NCBI GenBank assembly: GCA_947569225.1
Contig: CANORX010000009.1
Location: 1 to 14,186 of the forward strand
DNA: 14,186 nt
Direction: 5' to 3'
From: an uncultured Clostridia bacterium
GTDB lineage: Bacteria > Bacillota_I > Bacilli_A > RF39 > UBA660
Positions within the stretch are counted from its first letter, which is position 1. Every line of letters starts with the position of its first letter. A model generated the notes under the pieces. That model had not been told where the DNA came from. It worked only from the letters and a program-made list of their open reading frames with translations, and did not search any database. Positions 3,172 through 12,807 of the stretch are shown piece by piece. Made by a program: the position numbers and the translations under genes.

Positions 3172-4575
3172 ATGAAGAAAACAAAAATAGTATGTAGCAT
3201 AGGACCATCAAGTTATGATTACGAAGTTTTCAAGAAAATGGTTTATGCTGGAATGAACGTTGCAAGAGTGAACTTTTCACATGCATCAGAAGAAGAAAAA
3301 GAAACTGTAATTAATTTAGTAAAGAGAGTAAATGAAGAAGAAAATAAGAACATAGCGCTTCTTTATGACACTAAAGGACCTGAATTTAGAAATGGTGATG
3401 TACAAGAAGAAGGTATAAACTTACAAAGAGGTAAAACAATACGTATAGTAAAAGAAAACGTAATAGGAAATGAAGAAAGATTTAGTGTTAATCATCCAAG
3501 TGCATTAGATAGCTTAAATGTTGGAAATGTAATACAATTAGAAAATGGATTAATGAAAATAGAAGTCATATCTAAAGAAGAAGATGGAGTAACATGTAAA
3601 ATAATAAATGGTGGAAACCTAGGAAGAAGAAAAAGCTTATTTGTGCCTGGAGTAAAATTAGATATACCATTTATAAGTGAGATAGATAAAGCAGACATAG
3701 AATATGCTTGTACTCACGATGGAGACTTCTTAGCACTATCATTTGTATCATGCAAAGAAGATGTTTTAGAAGCAAGAGAAATACTAAAATAACATAACAG
3801 TAAAATGAGAATAATATCTAAAATTGAAAGTAAAACTGGAGTTGAAAACATAGACGAGATTTTAGAAGTAAGTGAAGGAGTAATGGTAGCACGCGGAGAC
3901 TTAGGAGAAGAAGTTCCAATTTCATTATTACCTGTATATCAAAAACTAATAATAAGAAAAGCAAGAGAACATGGAAAAGCATGTATAGTTGCGACTGAAA
4001 TGTTAGAAAGCATGAAAAAGAACTCACGTCCAACTAGAGCAGAAGTAACAGATGTAGCTAACGCTGTATTAGATGGGACAGATGCAGTAATGCTTAGTGG
4101 AGAAACAACTGTTGGTAATTATCCGATAGAAACAGTAACTTACATGGCTAGTATTGTAAAAGATGCAGAAGAACATGCCAATAATAAATTTGAGTACACT
4201 GGAAAAATTGGTCGTACTGAATGTATAGCAAGAGGAGCAGTAGAACTTACAAACTATGTAGATGCAAAAGCTATAACATGTGCTTCTATAAGTGGATTCT
4301 CAGCAAGATTTATAAGTAACTTTAGACCTAATTGTCCAATAATAGCACCTTGTACAACTAAAGAAGTTGCAAGAAGCTTATCATTAAATTATGGTATATA
4401 TACTAGTATAGTACCTGTTCTAAACAGTACAGACAGTATAATAGAGGAAAGTATAAAAATTGCTAAAGAGTACTTAAACTTACAAAAAGAAGACAAAATA
4501 ATAGTAACAGGCGGAATACCAGTAACAGATGAAGGAAGAATAACAAACTTTATAAAAATAGAAGAAATAAAATAA
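3172..4575 (+). pseudogene. pyk: Pyruvate kinase interrupted by one in-frame TAA (3790-3792)
   Basis: Pyruvate kinase transfers phosphate from phosphoenolpyruvate to ADP, the last step of glycolysis. Both parts are in the same frame: 206 codons, TAA, four codons (H-N-S-K), then 256 codons from an internal Met, about 467 in all, normal for the family. First part: ARVNFSH (31-37), YDTKGPEFR (65-73) and the B domain (about 75-160). Second part: IISKIESK with the catalytic Lys, MVARGDLG, ATEMLESM, NSRPTRAEV and DAVMLSGETT. Neither half alone holds the whole active site. Related enzymes usually have Glu or a similar residue where the stop stands, so one base change (for example GAA to TAA) explains it; no frameshift or other decay is visible. 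No ribosome site precedes the Met at 3805. A real mutation, an assembly or sequencing error, or readthrough (the stop is followed by C, a leaky context) remain possible. The gene has a strong ribosome site (AGGGGAG) and its own terminator. Confidence 0.85.
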
Positions 4576-4663: not shown

Positions 4664-5281
4664 CTAAAACTTCCTATAAAGTCCAATAGCAATACCTAAA
4701 ATATCAACTTTATCTAAAATAATAGGATCCATAGTTTCATTTTCAGGTTGCAATCTATAATAACCATTTTCCTTATAAAAAGTCTTTAATGTAGTAAAAC
4801 CATTCTCATCTAAAGCAACTACATAATCTCCATTTTTAGCAGAACTAGTTCTCTTAACAATAACTATATCCCCATCATATATACCAGCATTTTTCATGCT
4901 CATTCCTTCAGTTTTTAAAGTAAAAATCTCTTCTTTTTTAGGAATCATATATGCAGGCAAACTAATATATTCATCAGGAAACTCAATAGCTTCAATAGGA
5001 TTACCACAAGTTACCTTTCCAAGAAGTGGTACACTAATAACTTCTTCTTTTGTTTCTAAATACTCGTTAGGTACTAGAACTTCTAAAGTACGAAATTTAT
5101 TATCTGTTTGTTTTATATAACCTTTATTCATTAAATGTCTCATATGAACAAATCCAGTAGCAGTACTATTTAAACCCATCATTTCACAAACTTCTCTAAC
5201 ACTTGGACTATATCCATTTTTAGCTATAAATTTTTTTATACAAGTAAGTGCTATTTCCTGTTTTTTAGTTAATGGTTCCAT
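4664..5281 (-). CDS. lexA: LexA, SOS-response transcriptional repressor
   Basis: Repressor of DNA-damage genes; RecA filaments trigger its self-cleavage. The 205 residues are standard. The N-terminal winged helix-turn-helix spans about 1-67 (LTKKQEIALTCI; GYSPSVREVCEMMGLNSTA; LMNKGYI). The scissile bond sits in VTCGNP at Cys92-Gly93; the usual LexA pair is Ala-Gly, but Cys-Gly is the pair cut in the related UmuD. The catalytic Ser128 is in EGMSMKNAG and Lys166 in TTLKTF; the C-terminal LQPEN and LGIAIG motifs are also present. A prophage CI-type repressor is less likely because of the LexA-type N-terminus and the neighbours. A strong ribosome site (AAGGAGAGTGAT) precedes the ATG. The promoter holds a LexA-box-like site, so autoregulation is expected. 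Divergent from a small membrane protein and tkt, as in Bacillus. Confidence 0.95.
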   Translation of the reverse strand: MEPLTKKQEIALTCIKKFIAKNGYSPSVREVCEMMGLNSTATGFVHMRHLMNKGYIKQTDNKFRTLEVLVPNEYLETKEEVISVPLLGKVTCGNPIEAIEFPDEYISLPAYMIPKKEEIFTLKTEGMSMKNAGIYDGDIVIVKRTSSAKNGDYVVALDENGFTTLKTFYKENGYYRLQPENETMDPIILDKVDILGIAIGLYRKF

Positions 5282-5304
5282 AATATCACTCTCCTTCTAA
5301 ATAC

Positions 5305-5333
5305 ATATTAACAAATAAACGTACATTTGTCAA
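5305..5333 (-). promoter_or_regulatory. lexA promoter (sigma-A type)
   Basis: On the minus strand TTGACA (5328-5333) is followed after exactly 17 bases by TAATAT (5305-5310). The predicted RNA starts near 5298, about 17 bases before the lexA ATG, with room for the ribosome site. The -35 is a perfect consensus. Confidence 0.8.
5316..5329. promoter_or_regulatory. Candidate LexA operator within the lexA promoter
   Basis: The 14-mer TAAACGTACATTTG matches 11 of 14 positions of the Bacillus-type SOS box CGAACRNRYGTTYG, including the AAC arm and the R-N-R-Y centre. It fills the spacer and overlaps the -35 of the lexA promoter, where bound LexA would exclude RNA polymerase. Inferred from position and similarity. 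Confidence 0.5.
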
Positions 5334-5352
5334 ACATTTTTTTGTTTTCCTA

Positions 5353-5381
5353 TTGACACGAACAATTATATGGTGTATTAT
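5353..5381 (+). promoter_or_regulatory. Promoter of the small membrane protein divergent from lexA
   Basis: TTGACA (5353-5358), a 17-base spacer and TATTAT (5376-5381): a near-perfect sigma-A promoter. The expected RNA start near 5388 leaves a 26-base leader before the ATG at 5414. A second LexA-box-like site lies in the spacer. Confidence 0.8.
5359..5372. promoter_or_regulatory. Candidate LexA operator within the small-protein promoter
   Basis: CGAACAATTATATG has the perfect left arm CGAAC of the Bacillus-type SOS box and matches 11 of 14 consensus positions; the right arm is degenerate. On the minus strand it shares the pattern CAWAT-N4-GTTYR with the site at 5316-5329. It lies exactly between the -35 and -10 boxes. 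Suggestive rather than proven. Confidence 0.4.
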
Positions 5382-5413
5382 GAGAACATAAAAAGAAAAG
5401 GATGTGAGTTTAT

Positions 5414-5566
5414 ATGGAAAAAATAAGAGGATTTTTTGAAGACTATAAAGGAATAATAATCTTTTATATAATAATAGGGGTATTAGCATTTTTACTGACC
5501 AAGAAAATAGAAGATATAAACGCACAAGCTAGAATAACTACTGAACAAGAGAGCTACTATGCATAA
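5414..5566 (+). CDS. Small single-pass membrane protein, YneA-position candidate
   Basis: A 50-codon gene starting MEKIRGFFEDYKG, with a hydrophobic helix at about residues 13-28 (IIIFYIIIGVLAFLL), a KK pair just after it, and a polar tail ending ESYYA. It resembles no family I can name. Support for a real gene: near-consensus promoter, ribosome site AAGGATGTGAG at suitable spacing, and a dedicated slot between lexA and tkt. In Bacillus subtilis the same slot holds yneA-yneB-ynzC, where yneA encodes an SOS-induced membrane inhibitor of cell division with a LysM domain. This protein has no LysM domain and is about half as long, so homology is not shown. By position, topology and the LexA-like site in its promoter I infer a possible SOS-induced division or envelope regulator. 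Confidence 0.75.
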   Translation: MEKIRGFFEDYKGIIIFYIIIGVLAFLLTKKIEDINAQARITTEQESYYA

Positions 5567-5572
5567 AAATTT

Positions 5573-5601
5573 TTGCAAAGATCTCTTTAGCATGATATAA
5601 T
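5573..5601 (+). promoter_or_regulatory. Transketolase promoter
   Basis: TTGCAA (5573-5578), 17 bases, then TATAAT (5596-5601) with an upstream TG at 5593-5594 giving an extended -10 (TGATATAAT). The expected start near 5608 leaves about 21 bases before the tkt ATG. It begins right after the stop of the small membrane gene, so tkt can be transcribed independently of SOS control. Confidence 0.75.
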
Positions 5602-5628: not shown

Positions 5629-7584
5629 ATGGATACTAAGATAATAAATGGAATAAGAAGTTTAGCGCTTGATATGATTAACGAATCAGGAAGTGGGCAC
5701 CCAGGAATATGTTTGGGTGCGGCTCCCATAGTATATAGTTTATTTAAAGAACATTTAAACTTTAACAAAGAAGATGGAGAGTGGATTAACAGAGACAGAT
5801 TTATATTAAGTGCAGGTCACGCATCAGCTCTACTATATAGTATTTTATTTTATAGTGGTTATCCTATAGACATTGAAGATTTAAAAAAATACAGAAGACG
5901 CGGAAGCAAATTGACAGGACACCCTGAACTAAATAAAAAACTAGGAGTTGAATTGACTACGGGTCCGTTAGGACAAGGATTTGCTTCATCTGTAGGAATA
6001 GCCATGGCAGAAGAATACTTGCGTGCTCTTTTAGGAAAAGACTTAATAAATAATTATACATATGTACTAGCGTCAGATGGAGACTTAATGGAAGGAGTAT
6101 CATATGAAGCTGCTTCTCTAGCAGGCACTTTAAAATTAGGTAAACTAATAGTATTATATGACTCTAATGGAGTAACGCTAGATGGTAAAACAGAAGGAGT
6201 ATTCAATGAAAATGTACTAAAAAGATTTGAATCAATGGGATGGCATACAGAATTAGTAAATAACGCTGAAGACTTTATAAGCATAAACAATGCTATTACT
6301 AAAGCAAAAGAAATAGAAGACAAGCCAAGCTTAATTGAAATAAAATCCATTATAGGAATAGGCACAAGTAAAGCAGGTTCATGTGAAGTACATGGTGGAC
6401 CATTATCAGAAAATGATTTAATAAAAGTAAAAGAAAAAATGAATATATCAAGAGTCCCTTTTCATGTTTCTAAAGAAGCTATAACTAACTATAGAGAAAT
6501 GATAGATAAAAGAACTAGTAGCATATACAATAATTGGGTTACAAACTATAACAAAGTATTTGAAACTGATGAAGAAAAAAGAAAAATTTTAACAGCAATA
6601 GAAGATGGAAACATAAAACTAAACCTAAAAAATCTACAAATAAACTTTGACATTAACATGAAAGAAGACATGAGAATAACTAATTCAAATCTAATGAATG
6701 TAATTGGAAAACTACTACCGTTATTTATAGGTGGATGCGCTGACACAAAAAGATCAACATATGCGCACATTGAAGGAGGAAAAGACTTCAAGATAAATAG
6801 TAACACAGGAGGAAACATACACTGTGGAATAAGAGAACATGCGATGGGGTCTATATTAAATGGTCTAGCATTATCAGGATTAAGACCATTTGGAGGATGC
6901 ATGTTAGCCTTTAGTGATTACTTAAAACCAGCAATAAGACTAACAAGCATGATGAATTTACCTGTAACGTACATATTCTCTCATGACTCAATAAAAATAG
7001 GAAGTGATGGCCCTACACACCAACCAATCGAACAACTATCAAGCCTTAGAAACATACCTAATATGACAGTATTTAGACCAGCAGACGTTAACGAAATAGT
7101 AGGGTGTTGGGACTACATAATAAATAAAAGAGTACCTTCAACTTTAATAATACCAAAAGAAGAAAAAGGAATAATAAAAGGTAGTAACATAGAAGGAACA
7201 ATCAAAGGTGGATACTTAATCAAAAAAGAAAATGGAAGACTTGGAGGAATAATAATATCAACAGGTAGTGAAGTAGAAACATCTATATTAATAAGTGATC
7301 AATTAGAAAAAAAAGGAATAATGACTAGAGTAATATCTATGCCATCAATAGAAGTGTTTAACAAACAACCGAAAGAATACAAAGAATCTCTTCTTCCAGT
7401 AGGTGCCAAAACTATAGTAATAGAAGCGAGTAACGACCCTATTTGGAATGAATTTGTCTATAACAGAAATTACATATTAAACATAAATACATTTGGAATA
7501 AGTGGAACAAAAAGTGAAATATTAGACTATTTTGACTATAACTTAGAAAAATTACTAGAAAAAACAGAAAAGTTACTAAAATAG
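5629..7584 (+). CDS. tkt: Transketolase
   Basis: Thiamine-diphosphate enzyme of the pentose phosphate pathway that moves two-carbon ketol units between sugar phosphates. The 651 residues are close to the usual 660-670 and all three domains are present. Seen: SGHPG with His24, GHAS with His64, TTGPLGQG (110-117), the cofactor/Mg motif SDGDLMEG...YDSN (149-180; the first residue of the usual GDGDL is Ser), VHGGPL with His255, GIREHAM with the catalytic Glu403, and SHDSIKIGSDGPTHQPIE in the pyrimidine domain. The ribosome site AGGTGAG sits two bases before the ATG. It is downstream of the lexA-divergent small gene but has its own extended -10 promoter. The lexA-tkt linkage matches Bacillus. No obvious terminator follows; the next gene has its own promoter. 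Confidence 0.96.
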   Translation: MDTKIINGIRSLALDMINESGSGHPGICLGAAPIVYSLFKEHLNFNKEDGEWINRDRFILSAGHASALLYSILFYSGYPIDIEDLKKYRRRGSKLTGHPELNKKLGVELTTGPLGQGFASSVGIAMAEEYLRALLGKDLINNYTYVLASDGDLMEGVSYEAASLAGTLKLGKLIVLYDSNGVTLDGKTEGVFNENVLKRFESMGWHTELVNNAEDFISINNAITKAKEIEDKPSLIEIKSIIGIGTSKAGSCEVHGGPLSENDLIKVKEKMNISRVPFHVSKEAITNYREMIDKRTSSIYNNWVTNYNKVFETDEEKRKILTAIEDGNIKLNLKNLQINFDINMKEDMRITNSNLMNVIGKLLPLFIGGCADTKRSTYAHIEGGKDFKINSNTGGNIHCGIREHAMGSILNGLALSGLRPFGGCMLAFSDYLKPAIRLTSMMNLPVTYIFSHDSIKIGSDGPTHQPIEQLSSLRNIPNMTVFRPADVNEIVGCWDYIINKRVPSTLIIPKEEKGIIKGSNIEGTIKGGYLIKKENGRLGGIIISTGSEVETSILISDQLEKKGIMTRVISMPSIEVFNKQPKEYKESLLPVGAKTIVIEASNDPIWNEFVYNRNYILNINTFGISGTKSEILDYFDYNLEKLLEKTEKLLK

Positions 7585-8251: not shown

Positions 8252-8578
8252 CTAATGTTTAATATTATCTTTTACAACTATTATTTTTTTAAAATTATCA
8301 TTTATATTCATTAAAGGTCTCTCTTCTTGAATTGTCTTTTCTCTAGTATCTAAATTTACTGCTGATTGCACATAATATCTCTTATTTTCCTCTCTATCTA
8401 ATTCAATTTTAATAATATGATCTTCCCTCACACCGCTTCCAATTAAATAATTCTTAAAAAGAGGATCTAATAAATATGATTTTCCACATCTTCTAATTCC
8501 AGTTATTATTTTAATAAGTCCGTTTTCTTTTCTATTTATTAGTTTCTCTAAATAAACATCTCTTTTTATTTCTTTCAT
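8252..8578 (-). pseudogene. AAA_14/DUF4143-family ATPase, internally deleted remnant
   Basis: The first 67 or so residues (MKEIKRDVYLEKLINRKENG..., Walker A GIRRCGKS at 27-34, then EDHIIKIELD) match the start of the widespread prokaryotic ATPases with an AAA_14 domain and a C-terminal DUF4143. The next segment (KRYYVQSAVNLDTREKT..., NFKKIIVVKDNIK) matches the extreme C-terminus of the same family. The middle, including Walker B and most of DUF4143 (about 290 residues in relatives I recall), is absent, joined in frame near ENKRYY. After 108 codons a TAG occurs where relatives continue; the next codons read FTEEGSLDF, reminiscent of the usual tail, so a second lesion is likely. The start at 8578 is chosen over the in-frame ATG at 8626 because GGAGG lies just before it and the family begins here. 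Probably non-functional. Confidence 0.8.
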
Positions 8579-8657
8579 ATATTTCCTCCATTGAAAATTT
8601 TTGCCACTTTTATCATTTTTTTTCAATGTGATTGTAGAATAATTTATTAATATAAAA

Positions 8658-8753
8658 CTATTTTTTATTACTAATACTCAAAATAATACCAATCATACTC
8701 ATACTAACAAGCAAACTAGAACCACCATAACTAATAAAAGGAAGAGTAACACC
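8658..8753 (-). pseudogene. 3' end of a SEDS-family gene (FtsW/RodA/SpoVE), cut by the element
   Basis: The minus strand encodes 31 residues, GVTLPFISYGGSSLLVSMSM...SISNKK, then TAG. LPFISYGGSSLL is the highly conserved last periplasmic loop and final helix of the SEDS glycosyltransferases that build septal or lateral-wall peptidoglycan. Upstream the frame meets TAG at once (8754-8756) and similarity stops, marking the chromosome/element junction. FtsW and RodA cannot be separated from this piece. The rest of the gene must lie past the other end of the element, outside the window. Integration may restore the gene there if the element carries a matching 3' end; otherwise this copy is broken. 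Confidence 0.85.
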
Positions 8754-8837: not shown

Positions 8838-8854
8838 TTTTTTATACAGTTTCT
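8833..8854 (-). terminator. Hairpin at the recombinase stop codon
   Basis: AACTGT (8833-8838) pairs with ACAGTT (8846-8851), spanning the stop codon of the recombinase. The T tract after it on the minus strand is poor (ATTTGG), so termination is doubtful; it may instead be part of the attachment region. Confidence 0.3.
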
Positions 8855-10419
8855 TTTAATTCTGGAAACTTTAGATGAACATATACTTTTTTGTCCTTAT
8901 CTATTTCTATTCTATCAACTAATCTTTCTACCATATTTTTAGTAGGGTTTTTCAAAGACATATAATCAAGAATAGATTTTTTACATTTATGAAAACTTGA
9001 ATTTGTGTCGTTTTGTTTTTCATTTGCTTGTTTCTTTTTTTCTAAGTTTTCTAATTCAATATTTAACTTTGATATTTCATCTTGGGTTTTATCATATATT
9101 CTTTTATACATTTCATTATCTACTAAACCTTTTACTTTATCAAGATAAAGATTATCAATAGTATTTTTGTGAGAATTTAATAAAGTTTTAATTCTTTCTA
9201 TTTTTGTATTTATTTCTTTTATATTTTTCATAACAATATCTTCCGAATTATCTTCAATTTCATTAAAATTATAATGTTTACAAAATTTTTCACATACCTC
9301 TTGTAAATATTCTACAATATCTTCTTCTAACCAGTCATAATTAATTCTATGAGATGAACAGATACCAAATTTTCCTTTTCTAGTATATAAATTGCATTGT
9401 GTATAATGTCTTACTCCAGATTTTAGCACATCTTCACTTATTCTAATAGTACGACCACATTCATGACAATAAAGCATACCACCTAATAAATAATCAAGTT
9501 GATGATCAGTTGCTCTAGTAGTCATTTTTGATTTTAAAATTTCTTGTACTTTTTCAAATACTTCCTTAGAAATTATTCCCTCATGGGTATTTTCTACTAT
9601 TATTAATTCATCAGCAGTAGTTTTTCGTAATTTTTTAGAATTATAACTAATTTTATTATGAGTATTCTGTACCATATTTCCTATATACATTTGATTTGTT
9701 AGTATTCCAAAAACAGTTTGTCTTTTCCAAATACCATAACCATCATTTTCTGTTACATCTTTTGCTCTAGGTTCTTTCTTATGAACTATTGGAATAGGTA
9801 TTTTCTTTAGTGTCAATGATTCTGCTATCTTATTTGGGCTATAACCCTCAAGTGCTAAATCATAGATTAATTCTATTACATATCTTACATCTTCATCTAC
9901 AATTAATTTATGTCTATCTGATGGATCTTTTTTATATCCATATAATGGAAAAGATCCAATATAATCACCACGATTTTGTTTTGCCCTTAAAGATGTCTTA
10001 ACCTTTTTAGAAACATCTCTTAAATATAAGTCATTTACACTTAATCTAATACCAAGCATGGAATCACCAATATTGGAATCATAGGAATCATTAATAGCAA
10101 TATATCTGACACCTTTTTCTAAAAAGTATTCTTCAATGTACTTACCAGTTTTATACATTTCACGACCAAGTCTTGATAAATCTTTAGTAATTACACAATT
10201 AATTTTTCCACTTTCAATATCTTTAATCATTTCTTGAAATCCTGGTCTATCAAAATTACCACCAGAATAACCATCATCTACATAATGTTTATAAATTTTT
10301 AAATTATTGAATTTAGCAAATGAATCAATTATAATTTTTTGACTTTGAATAGAAGAACTTTCATCAGTTTTACTGTCAGCATCTGATAATCTGTCATAAG
10401 CACCACAAATATATTCCAT
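8842..10419 (-). CDS. Large serine recombinase (TnpX/Tn4451 type), element integrase
   Basis: Site-specific recombinase that cuts and rejoins attachment sites through a Ser-DNA bond, likely integrating and excising this element. The 525 residues show the resolvase domain (about 3-145): YDRLS with Arg10 and the expected nucleophile Ser12, SIQSQK (23-28), DDGYSGGNFDRPGF (48-61) and KDLSRLGREM (79-88). Then come a recombinase domain (about 155-295), a zinc ribbon with Cys318, Cys321, Cys342 and Cys354, a coiled coil (about 395-470), and a short tail. The length is at the short end for this group. The ribosome site GGAGG precedes the ATG, which overlaps the stop of a 28-codon ORF (TAATG). Lying next to the junction and transcribed toward it is the usual arrangement. 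Confidence 0.93.
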   Translation of the reverse strand: MEYICGAYDRLSDADSKTDESSSIQSQKIIIDSFAKFNNLKIYKHYVDDGYSGGNFDRPGFQEMIKDIESGKINCVITKDLSRLGREMYKTGKYIEEYFLEKGVRYIAINDSYDSNIGDSMLGIRLSVNDLYLRDVSKKVKTSLRAKQNRGDYIGSFPLYGYKKDPSDRHKLIVDEDVRYVIELIYDLALEGYSPNKIAESLTLKKIPIPIVHKKEPRAKDVTENDGYGIWKRQTVFGILTNQMYIGNMVQNTHNKISYNSKKLRKTTADELIIVENTHEGIISKEVFEKVQEILKSKMTTRATDHQLDYLLGGMLYCHECGRTIRISEDVLKSGVRHYTQCNLYTRKGKFGICSSHRINYDWLEEDIVEYLQEVCEKFCKHYNFNEIEDNSEDIVMKNIKEINTKIERIKTLLNSHKNTIDNLYLDKVKGLVDNEMYKRIYDKTQDEISKLNIELENLEKKKQANEKQNDTNSSFHKCKKSILDYMSLKNPTKNMVERLVDRIEIDKDKKVYVHLKFPELKETV

Positions 10420-10779: not shown

Positions 10780-12807
10780 TTAGACATTTTTATTTCCTTT
10801 CTCTAAAGTCATGTCTTTTTCTAAAGGGTTTTTTAAATGTATTTCAATGGTAGACTTAGTATTATTACCATTATCTATTTCTAAATGAAATACTTCCTTA
10901 TTTATTTTACCTTTAATAAAGGTTAATTCCTTAGTATTAAGTGGCTTAGATAATTCAAAACTAGCATAAATTCTATTATTATTTTCTTTAAATTCAAATA
11001 AAGAAATTTTATTTTTAAGTTGATCTTGTACGATTTCAACTATATTTTTTAGTTTTTCTTTTTCTGCTTCTCTAAATTTATCTAATTCTGATAATTCTTC
11101 TTTATAGATAGATTTATCATTTCTGTTTCTAAATAATCTATCATATTTAGTCTTAATATCTTCAACAGTAAAATATGTACTACTTAAATCTACTAATGGT
11201 ACCATTTTTCTTTCCAGTTCACCACTAGAATAACAAGATAATCTTTTATAGATAACAGTATCCCTAAAAATTGGGTAGCCAATAGTAGGAAAAATTATAG
11301 TTTTATGATGAAGATTTTTTACTTCATCTGGTGTTAAGAGATCACGGGCAATTAAGGAAGTAGATTTATTTCCATTATAATTAGTTAAACTAATAGACTG
11401 GCTTATAGAGTTACTTTCAATAGATTTTTTTCCTAGCATTTTTGAAACTGCTTCAGCAGTAGACATGGTATTCGTTTTAAGGTATTGCAGACCAGCATTA
11501 TCAAGAATAATCTGGGCTACTTCTTTACCATAAACATTATCAAGTTGACTTAAACTTTGAATAAACAAATGATACCTTAACCCACGAGAACGAGCAACAG
11601 AAATTATGGATTCTATACTTGGCTCTACTAGTGGTGGGCAATTTGAAAATTCATCACATATCCAGTCAATTTCAATAGGACATTTTTTATTTTCATTAGC
11701 ATTAGCAAGTTTTACTAATTCCTTATATAAAAGACCTAATATGATCGTAACTAGAGAATAATAAACTTTATCTTCATCTGGAACTATAACAAATAAAGCA
11801 GACTTTTCCTTACCTAAAATATCAAAATCAAAATCTGACTTACTAGTAACATTAGCAACATTGACATCATCAAATATAGCCATTTTTTCAGAAAAGACAC
11901 TAGTAATAGATTTATAAGTATTTTCACTAGATGATAGAATAGGAATTAAACTATCTTTTGATTTAGTACCATAAGGTTTTTGTTCAATATATAATTTAAA
12001 CTTTTTAGAATTTTTTTCTTCCATAGTAGAATTTTGAAACTTACGAATGGAAGTCATAGTTATTTGCTCACGGCTAATTTTACCATCCTTATATTCTTCT
12101 AAAAAGAAACCTATTAAACCCTCTAGTAAGTTTTTAGCACTATTATTCCAAAAGGGATCTTTACCTTGTGATTTATCATAGGTAATCATGGATGCTAGAG
12201 AAGTAATTAGTCTATTAGTTTCAGCATAACTAGAAATAGATTTATTTTGATAATCTAGTCTTTCATTTTCATTAGTAGCAGTATTAACTAGATTTTCATA
12301 TTTTATATATTTTTCATATTCACATATAACTGGCTCTAAAATATTTATATGATTTGATAATTCTGGATGTCTAAAATCTATTGTTAAAACTTTATATCCT
12401 TTATCATATAGCATTTTAGAAGTTGTATGGTAAATTTCACCCTTAGGATCAGTAACAAAAACACTTCGTGGCTTTTTGGCATTAGCAATAAAACTAATCA
12501 TAGGTATAACACAAGTAACACTTTTACCAGAGCCACTTGATCCTAAGTAAACATAATGGGGTGTTTCTTTATCAAACCATACATGATTTATATTTTTATC
12601 ATAATAAATTGGAAATCCTACATCATTAATATTAGATATTTTTTCTTTTGAAAAATATTTATTTATTTCTGATTCAGTAGAAAACCTTGCAGATCCATAC
12701 TCATTATTATTTTTAATTTTATGTTTTGAAATTAATGGCTCTATATAAATAAAACAAATAATGAAAACAATTAAAATCAACAATAAAATAATAAGGGGCA
12801 AACTCAT
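10780..12807 (-). CDS. VirD4/TraG-like type IV coupling protein
   Basis: ATPase that recruits the relaxase-DNA complex to the conjugation channel; it acts at the membrane as a probable hexamer. The 675 residues have one clear N-terminal membrane helix (about 3-22), the NNEYGSARFS segment typical of the family (34-43), Walker A GSSGSGKS (89-96), TDPKGEIY (119-126), Walker B IDWICDEF (380-387) and the motif RSRGLRYHLFIQSLSQL (407-422). This fits the Gram-positive VirD4-like proteins of the Clostridioides CD1115 type. The C-terminus (about 570-675) is charged and less typical. Start context is special: the ribosome site AAGGGG lies in one arm of an 8-bp hairpin, and a 12-codon leader ends in ATGA on the start codon. 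The upstream genes are closely packed, so they form one operon. Confidence 0.92.
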   Translation of the reverse strand: MSLPLIILLLILIVFIICFIYIEPLISKHKIKNNNEYGSARFSTESEINKYFSKEKISNINDVGFPIYYDKNINHVWFDKETPHYVYLGSSGSGKSVTCVIPMISFIANAKKPRSVFVTDPKGEIYHTTSKMLYDKGYKVLTIDFRHPELSNHINILEPVICEYEKYIKYENLVNTATNENERLDYQNKSISSYAETNRLITSLASMITYDKSQGKDPFWNNSAKNLLEGLIGFFLEEYKDGKISREQITMTSIRKFQNSTMEEKNSKKFKLYIEQKPYGTKSKDSLIPILSSSENTYKSITSVFSEKMAIFDDVNVANVTSKSDFDFDILGKEKSALFVIVPDEDKVYYSLVTIILGLLYKELVKLANANENKKCPIEIDWICDEFSNCPPLVEPSIESIISVARSRGLRYHLFIQSLSQLDNVYGKEVAQIILDNAGLQYLKTNTMSTAEAVSKMLGKKSIESNSISQSISLTNYNGNKSTSLIARDLLTPDEVKNLHHKTIIFPTIGYPIFRDTVIYKRLSCYSSGELERKMVPLVDLSSTYFTVEDIKTKYDRLFRNRNDKSIYKEELSELDKFREAEKEKLKNIVEIVQDQLKNKISLFEFKENNNRIYASFELSKPLNTKELTFIKGKINKEVFHLEIDNGNNTKSTIEIHLKNPLEKDMTLEKGNKNV

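Follow-up and report, generated by a model that had tools for sequence, protein, structure and literature searches.

A predicted LexA-controlled single-pass membrane protein encoded divergently from lexA in small-genome gut Bacilli, a candidate SOS cell-division inhibitor

The DNA analysed here (the window, 14,186 nt) is contig C9 of an uncultured bacterial genome assembly (G000; 1.1 Mb, 193 contigs, 83% complete). The closest relatives are uncultured Bacilli or Firmicutes, and many of their isolate names point to rabbit, goat, sheep and rumen samples. The genes and sites in and around the interval between lexA and tkt are collected in Table 1. The product of lexA matched TIGR00498 at 187 bits (cut-off 110.95) and is complete by this family. 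Cys-Gly replaces Ala-Gly at its presumed self-cleavage site; by pattern, CG was found in 16 and AG in 128 of 147 loci, the pattern failing in three. An earlier note, made from the letters of the window, had placed an unlisted 50-codon ORF for a single-pass membrane protein between lexA and tkt. The ORF was confirmed, with the product MEKIRGFFEDYKGIIIFYIIIGVLAFLLTKKIEDINAQARITTEQESYYA, and proved to be conserved. The tkt gene has a promoter-like site of its own and therefore need not depend on the SOS promoter. On the other side of lexA, the pyruvate kinase gene (3172-4575, +) was found in two in-frame pieces with a stop codon at 3790-3792, either an assembly error or real.

Table 1. Genes, promoters and predicted LexA boxes of the lexA-tkt region, in window coordinates
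Feature	Position	Strand	Basis
lexA, SOS repressor	4664..5281	-	LexA_DNA_bind, Peptidase_S24, TIGR00498
sigma-70-type promoter of lexA, TTGACA-17-TAATAT (-35 5333-5328, -10 5310-5305)	5305..5333	-	consensus match
LexA box (predicted) of lexA, overlaps lexA -35	5331..5344	-	second matrix score in window; position relative to -35 as in relatives
sigma-70-type promoter of small gene, TTGACA-17-TATTAT	5353..5381	+	consensus match
LexA box (predicted) of small gene, in spacer right behind -35	5359..5372	+	top matrix score in window; co-occurrence with ORF
50-aa single-pass membrane protein ORF (proposed SOS-induced division inhibitor)	5414..5566	+	ORF list, conservation, dN/dS, AlphaFold2
promoter-like site for tkt, TTGCAA-17-TATAAT	5573..5601	+	consensus match only
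tkt, transketolase, next gene downstream of small ORF	5629..7584	+	Pfam/NCBIfam matches

The structure of the small protein was modelled by AlphaFold2 with 40 sequences, giving helices at residues 2-10 and 12-43 (mean pLDDT 83) and a C-terminal tail that ends in SYYA. Both hydropathy and the model predict a single membrane span, at about residues 12-30, with some 20 residues behind it; the median length of the family members is 48 aa. Net charge is +2.1 on the N-terminal side and -0.35 on the C-terminal side, and the N-terminal side is the more positive in 92 of 112 members, a count that excludes L028, L191 and lengths outside 40-62. This asymmetry predicts that the N-terminus lies inside and the C-terminus outside. 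The predicted layout fits a bitopic protein.

No Pfam, NCBIfam or Rfam family scored above its cut-off for the small ORF. The YneA family NF010723 did not match the window protein at E<=10. It matched two of 40 family members weakly (best E 0.013), and the one member seen in full scored 12.8 bits against a cut-off of 60, over profile positions 2-43 of 87. Since many of the weak family matches are of the hydrophobic-helix kind, the two YneA matches carry little weight alone. MpPF26 reached 16.8 bits at residues 15-38 (E 0.007; cut-off 37.2), which we put down to the hydrophobic helix and set aside. No LysM appeared when the window protein was scanned against Pfam (E<=10), nor in the list of 24 families obtained from 40 members (E<=1). 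In a phylum-level LexA search, the 34 of 245 matches that were listed all fell in the window's own class, and no YneA or SosA sequence was recovered among them. By sequence, the small protein is not a YneA. The earlier description of a protein with no LysM domain and about half the length of YneA, possibly an unrelated solution to the same task, fits YneA matches that stay below cut-off.

Conservation was examined in the family of the window, probably the RF39 group of GTDB, sampled for LexA over 148 genera with small genomes (193 genomes). We gathered 171 lexA loci (30 + L060 + 60 + 80), of which 147 were distinct over 200 bases upstream of lexA; the sample is biased toward the LexA proteins most similar to that of the window. 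A detector that looks for short divergent ORFs, preceded by a ribosome-binding site and encoding a single hydrophobic helix, was run on the 146 loci with at least 250 bases upstream of lexA, and on 400 control stretches downstream of lexA. Such an ORF adjoins lexA in 119 of the 146 loci and appears in 6 of the 400 controls. The six control hits show that chance can produce ORFs of this kind, which speaks for the view that the ORF is a leader or an AT-rich open frame and that only the promoter and operator of lexA are conserved. This explanation is already contradicted, and we regard it as extremely improbable. A tighter detector (42-60 aa, start 100-200 nt from lexA) still found the ORF in 108 of the 146 lexA loci and in none of the 400 controls. 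In the 15-member window clade the median dN/dS was 0.37, with dN<dS in 84 and dN>dS in 3 of the 87 usable pairs (of 105), for ORFs chosen by a loose aromatic/hydrophobic motif filter that may favour them slightly. The unfiltered detector recovered the same clade ORFs, taking later starts in L005, L130, L131 and L132. Differences at the three codon positions were 0.405, 0.240 and 0.543, the third being highest, and the C-terminus is YYA in 14 of the 15 clade proteins and FYA in the remaining one. Moreover, a profile of 40 members, in a search that admits only 0.55-1.75 times the query length, matched 171 public proteins at E<=0.01. The window protein was among the 120 of these that were listed; few of the 120 carried a descriptive name, and all such names were 'hypothetical protein'. 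The small ORF is a real, conserved gene under purifying selection in the window clade.

The gene downstream of the small ORF was classed by tblastn within 1.1 kb at 117 loci, giving tkt in 40, polA in 18, an MGD-synthase-like gene in 8, a SirA-like gene in 7 and an OGG-like gene in 4, with the others unclassed. The MGD and OGG names were assigned by eye, and one tkt starts 782 nt and one polA 992 nt away. A motif-based classing (tkt 21) was an undercount and was replaced by this one. The small gene is linked to lexA, not to one downstream gene. When the profile was searched against 37 lexA-bearing family genomes, a match beside lexA was found in 28, a count that is partly circular, as the profile holds members from some of these genomes. 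No LexA match at E<=1e-20 was found in 22 of the 193 family genomes. In the 20 of these searched with the profile, the sole strong match (G116, E 2e-11) lay beside a lexA cut by a contig end. Weaker matches occurred in 6 of the 20, at 6e-6 in G095 (a 199-aa frame) and at 8e-5 to 0.008 in G055, G024, G175, G139 and G071. When the search was relaxed, G083, also one of the 20, showed part of a LexA-like protein. In seven genomes of family f8, of the same class, lexA and tkt were present and no such ORF was seen by eye.

SirA-like genes follow the small ORF in L067, L022, L086, L019, L165, L179 and L098. In a scan of three of them with PF10747, L067 was above cut-off (E 2.5e-8), L022 just below it (2.2e-5) and L086 at 0.56. 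A SirA-like gene in this position would place a possible replication-start inhibitor under the SOS promoter. At four other loci (L070, L102, L173, L178) the slot has a good LexA box but another ORF, about 62 aa long and not of the membrane type; that of L070 matched an excisionase model only at E 0.91.

The two divergent promoters proposed in the earlier note, with 17-base spacers and perfect TTGACA, were both confirmed. Four promoter-like sites were found, against a shuffle mean of 3.3; being about as frequent as in shuffles, such sites draw their weight from conservation. LexA boxes were scored with a matrix of 189 relatives' sites, all from outside the window clade. The ORF-side box, CGAACAATTATATG, ranked best of 14,173 window positions with 13.7 bits, and in random 132-nt sequences a best site as good occurred at a frequency of 0.0005 (n=4,000). 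It is weaker than typical, the training sites having a median of 16.6 and a 5% quantile of 13.2 bits. Rank 2, at 13.2 bits, went to CAAACATTTTTTTG, which overlaps the lexA -35. The search string behind the lexA-side training sites left no freedom in their left half; a matrix of 86 gene-side sites, which avoids this, returned the same two top sites in the same order and gave the ORF-side box 15.2 bits. By a plain count against GAACN4GTTC, the best window site has 3 mismatches, as do 65.5% of shuffled sequences. The consensus alone would therefore not have revealed the window box, whereas the trained matrix does. An SOS box had been proposed earlier in each promoter spacer, at an '11/14' match, a figure that includes free positions of the consensus. 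The ORF-side box held; the lexA-side spacer site, TAAACGTACATTTG at 5316, fell to rank 9 with 5.2 bits, and the likely lexA operator is instead the predicted box over the -35.

In relatives, the two boxes read AAACAAATGTTT over the lexA -35 and GAACAAATGTTC right behind the -35 of the small gene. Against GAACN4GTTC, the best intergenic box was perfect in 10 of 119 loci and had 1, 2 or 3 mismatches in 54, 43 and 12, the window being among the last 12; in shuffles, 0 or 1 mismatch occurred in 2.4%. Of 120 loci with the ORF, 116 had an ORF-side box, against 5 of 22 loci without the ORF (Fisher p 3e-14). For this table, L028 and L191 were removed by hand as spurious, L088, L118, L197 and L105 were added, L120 was scored as lacking the ORF for an early in-frame stop in it, and four loci without a located lexA anchor were excluded from the 120 and 22; by the labels of the table, 25 of 146 loci lack the small ORF. 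The five ORF-less loci with a second box are L070, L102, L173 and L178, which have another small ORF, and L120 with its early-stop ORF. The two boxes are spaced by 28-29 bp in 86 of 116 loci and by 38-40 bp in 15, and the longer spacing, about one helical turn more, suggests that both repressors would sit on one face of the DNA.

A like box was found in the recA promoter of all eight genomes in which recA was found (10 searched), the window's genus included. Two of nine uvrB loci (G047, G010) were out of register, their upstream side being clipped by the contig, and among the seven readable promoters one had the box (G070). Neither recA nor uvrB was found in the window's own assembly, which fits its 83% completeness. 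The small gene is thus predicted to be under the same LexA control as lexA, and we infer binding and induction from the boxes. Lack of conservation of the ORF or boxes in relatives had been named as an outcome that would refute the proposal, and this outcome was not seen. The ORF, its helix, the back-to-back layout and the paired boxes are kept family-wide, with weak boxes in the window and poor ORF-side boxes in two clade members (L004, 2.9 bits; L127, 0.8 bits).

The slot beside lexA is known from other bacteria. According to the available parts of the cited papers, YneA, SosA, ChiZ and DivS, all encoded beside lexA, inhibit division in the SOS response; each spans the membrane once and has a predicted outer C-terminus, and their mutual homology is mostly slight (PMC6851548). 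SosA of Staphylococcus is among the closest known systems, likened here by its published description: it is divergent from lexA, SOS-controlled (predicted for the window gene) and LysM-free, with a single N-terminal transmembrane segment at residues 10-30 (predicted at about 12-30 in the window protein) and a short outer C-terminus (likewise predicted here). It differs in length, 77 aa against a family median of 48, and its function is shown whereas the one proposed here is inferred (PMC6851548). YneA of Bacillus and Listeria shares the lexA slot, including the lexA-tkt interval, the LexA box, the single transmembrane segment and the outer C-terminus, the last three as predicted here; it differs in its LysM domain, which was not found in the window protein, and the window protein does not match NF010723. 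SidA of Caulobacter, from another phylum, is not known to adjoin lexA. It is described as a small membrane SOS inhibitor of the septal synthesis complex (PMC13396833). ChiZ of Mycobacterium and DivS of Corynebacterium, likened by description and also from another phylum, are membrane SOS division inhibitors adjoining lexA, and DivS too is LysM-free (PMC6851548). In C. difficile a lexA mutant filaments (PMC4689574), so LexA also controls division there.

A further arrangement was seen in family f11, of the same class as the window. Genomes G268, G279 and G290 have a transmembrane ORF (57 aa) in the lexA slot, SOS-box-like promoter sites and a DUF896-like gene next; the f11 loci L261, L262 and L263 hold such a small ORF, other than that of the window (57 aa in L262), with several SOS-box-like sites. 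The small-protein profile found nothing in G268 or G279, the two searched, and no such ORF was found in the other three of the six f11 genomes fetched. More than one type of protein thus occupies the place next to lexA, either through common descent past recognition or through replacement. The earlier argument from the yneA slot is upheld by tkt within 1.1 kb downstream (40/117), by SirA-like neighbours (7/117) and by the order lexA, small transmembrane ORF, DUF896-like gene in 3 of 6 f11 genomes. In a literature search with most subscription journals outside its coverage, no account of such a gene in this lineage was found, the papers returned being on DinQ and TimP. A study of the gut SOS meta-regulon, in the text available, discusses division inhibitors and not this one (PMC3998124).

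The family-wide ORF, boxes and slot support the proposal of an SOS-controlled membrane protein in the yneA position. We consider it probable that the small ORF encodes the SOS cell-division inhibitor of this lineage, repressed by LexA and probably acting on FtsW and septal wall synthesis, and read the protein as a LysM-free, SosA-like inhibitor. LexA on the promoter-spacer box would repress the small gene together with lexA from the back-to-back promoters. Upon DNA damage, RecA would be activated, LexA would cleave itself and the 50-residue protein would be made. It would insert in the membrane with the N-terminus inside, as predicted from charge, and its transmembrane helix would dock on the machinery that builds the septal wall, with FtsW as the likeliest partner. 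The extension of the helix past the membrane and the short outer tail would then stop the synthesis of septal peptidoglycan. Clearance of the protein, probably by a protease of the CtpA type, would end the block.

In the available parts of the cited work, YneA binds TM7 of FtsW through its transmembrane segment and requires its LysM to stop septal synthesis; in B. subtilis, the transmembrane segment without LysM localises and does not inhibit (PMC13396833). A short LysM-free protein therefore needs a different blocking step, and the blocking part here would have to be the helix extension and the tail. For SosA, which has no LysM, a low-confidence model places an extended helix over the FtsW cavity (PMC13396833), and CtpA-class proteases clear both YneA and SosA (PMC6851548, PMC13396833). 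The computed support comprises the gene, its conservation and selection, the boxes, the lexA linkage and the occurrence in the family of FtsW/RodA-type genes (116/117 genomes) and S41 protease genes (105/117); LexA binding, induction, topology, target and turnover are predictions. The assembly of the window itself, 83% complete, yielded no S41 protease gene. A counterpoint to the inhibitor reading is that an integrative element interrupts the ftsW of this genome.

Two other functions were weighed against division inhibition. The protein could be an SOS-induced membrane peptide of the TisB/DinQ type, which lowers membrane potential or ATP and slows growth or gives tolerance, with no target in the divisome. 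DinQ is described as an SOS-regulated toxic single-transmembrane peptide (PMC3567139), and the size, the single helix and the predicted SOS control of the window protein fit. The predicted leader, however, is short, as the -10 ends at 5381 and the start codon lies at 5414, about 26 nt from the inferred start site. Toxins of the TisB/DinQ type have a long structured leader and an antisense RNA, for which there would be little room, and no Rfam family reached its gathering score in the window, which leaves room for an antisense RNA of an undescribed kind. The fixed slot beside lexA over the whole family and the charge asymmetry of a bitopic protein also argue against this function, and we regard it as unlikely. 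Slightly less likely still is that a LexA-linked membrane protein serves another task in the damage response, such as the anchoring or control of a protease or, jointly with SirA-like neighbours, a delay of replication start. The seven loci with SirA-like genes next, with PF10747 above cut-off for L067, would suit such a role, but 110 of 117 loci have something else downstream, and the known proteins in the slot, as far as described in the available text, are division inhibitors (PMC6851548).

The break in ftsW was seen in other genomes as well. In the window, an integrative element with a serine recombinase and a T4SS coupling protein (8842-10419, -; 10780-12807, -) abuts the last 31 ftsW codons (8658-8753, -), and the remainder of ftsW ends ...MIPVTG on contig C14 of the same assembly. 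At least 11 genomes have an FtsW match that ends at profile positions 324-331; in all 11 checked, ftsW breaks at these codons (PVTG or PITG), and the element ends are of four or more kinds. The same codons and different element ends make ftsW look like a recurrent attachment site; the literature search made beside this observation returned no mention of ftsW. Next to the ftsW fragment, an AAA_14 ATPase ORF (8252-8626, -) has 124 aa, whereas the counterpart in the same place in G077 has 412 aa, so the window copy looks truncated.

Gram-positive SOS division inhibitors share place and control and little sequence, and are thus missed by annotation; the small protein, too, falls in no named Pfam or NCBIfam family above cut-off. 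With it, an uncultured gut lineage gains a predicted checkpoint gene, and 'divergent from lexA, with its own box' is suggested as a workable rule for finding such genes. The small LysM-free protein may also serve for probing what blocks FtsW. It is possible, though rather doubtful, that a whole order of small-genome gut Bacilli relies for its division checkpoint after DNA damage on a minimal inhibitor, some 48 residues long, that evolved independently and lacks a peptidoglycan-binding domain, and whose transmembrane helix extends rigidly beyond the membrane and itself caps FtsW. If so, docking would be separated from blocking, unlike in YneA, and the slot beside lexA would have been filled repeatedly by unrelated membrane inhibitors.
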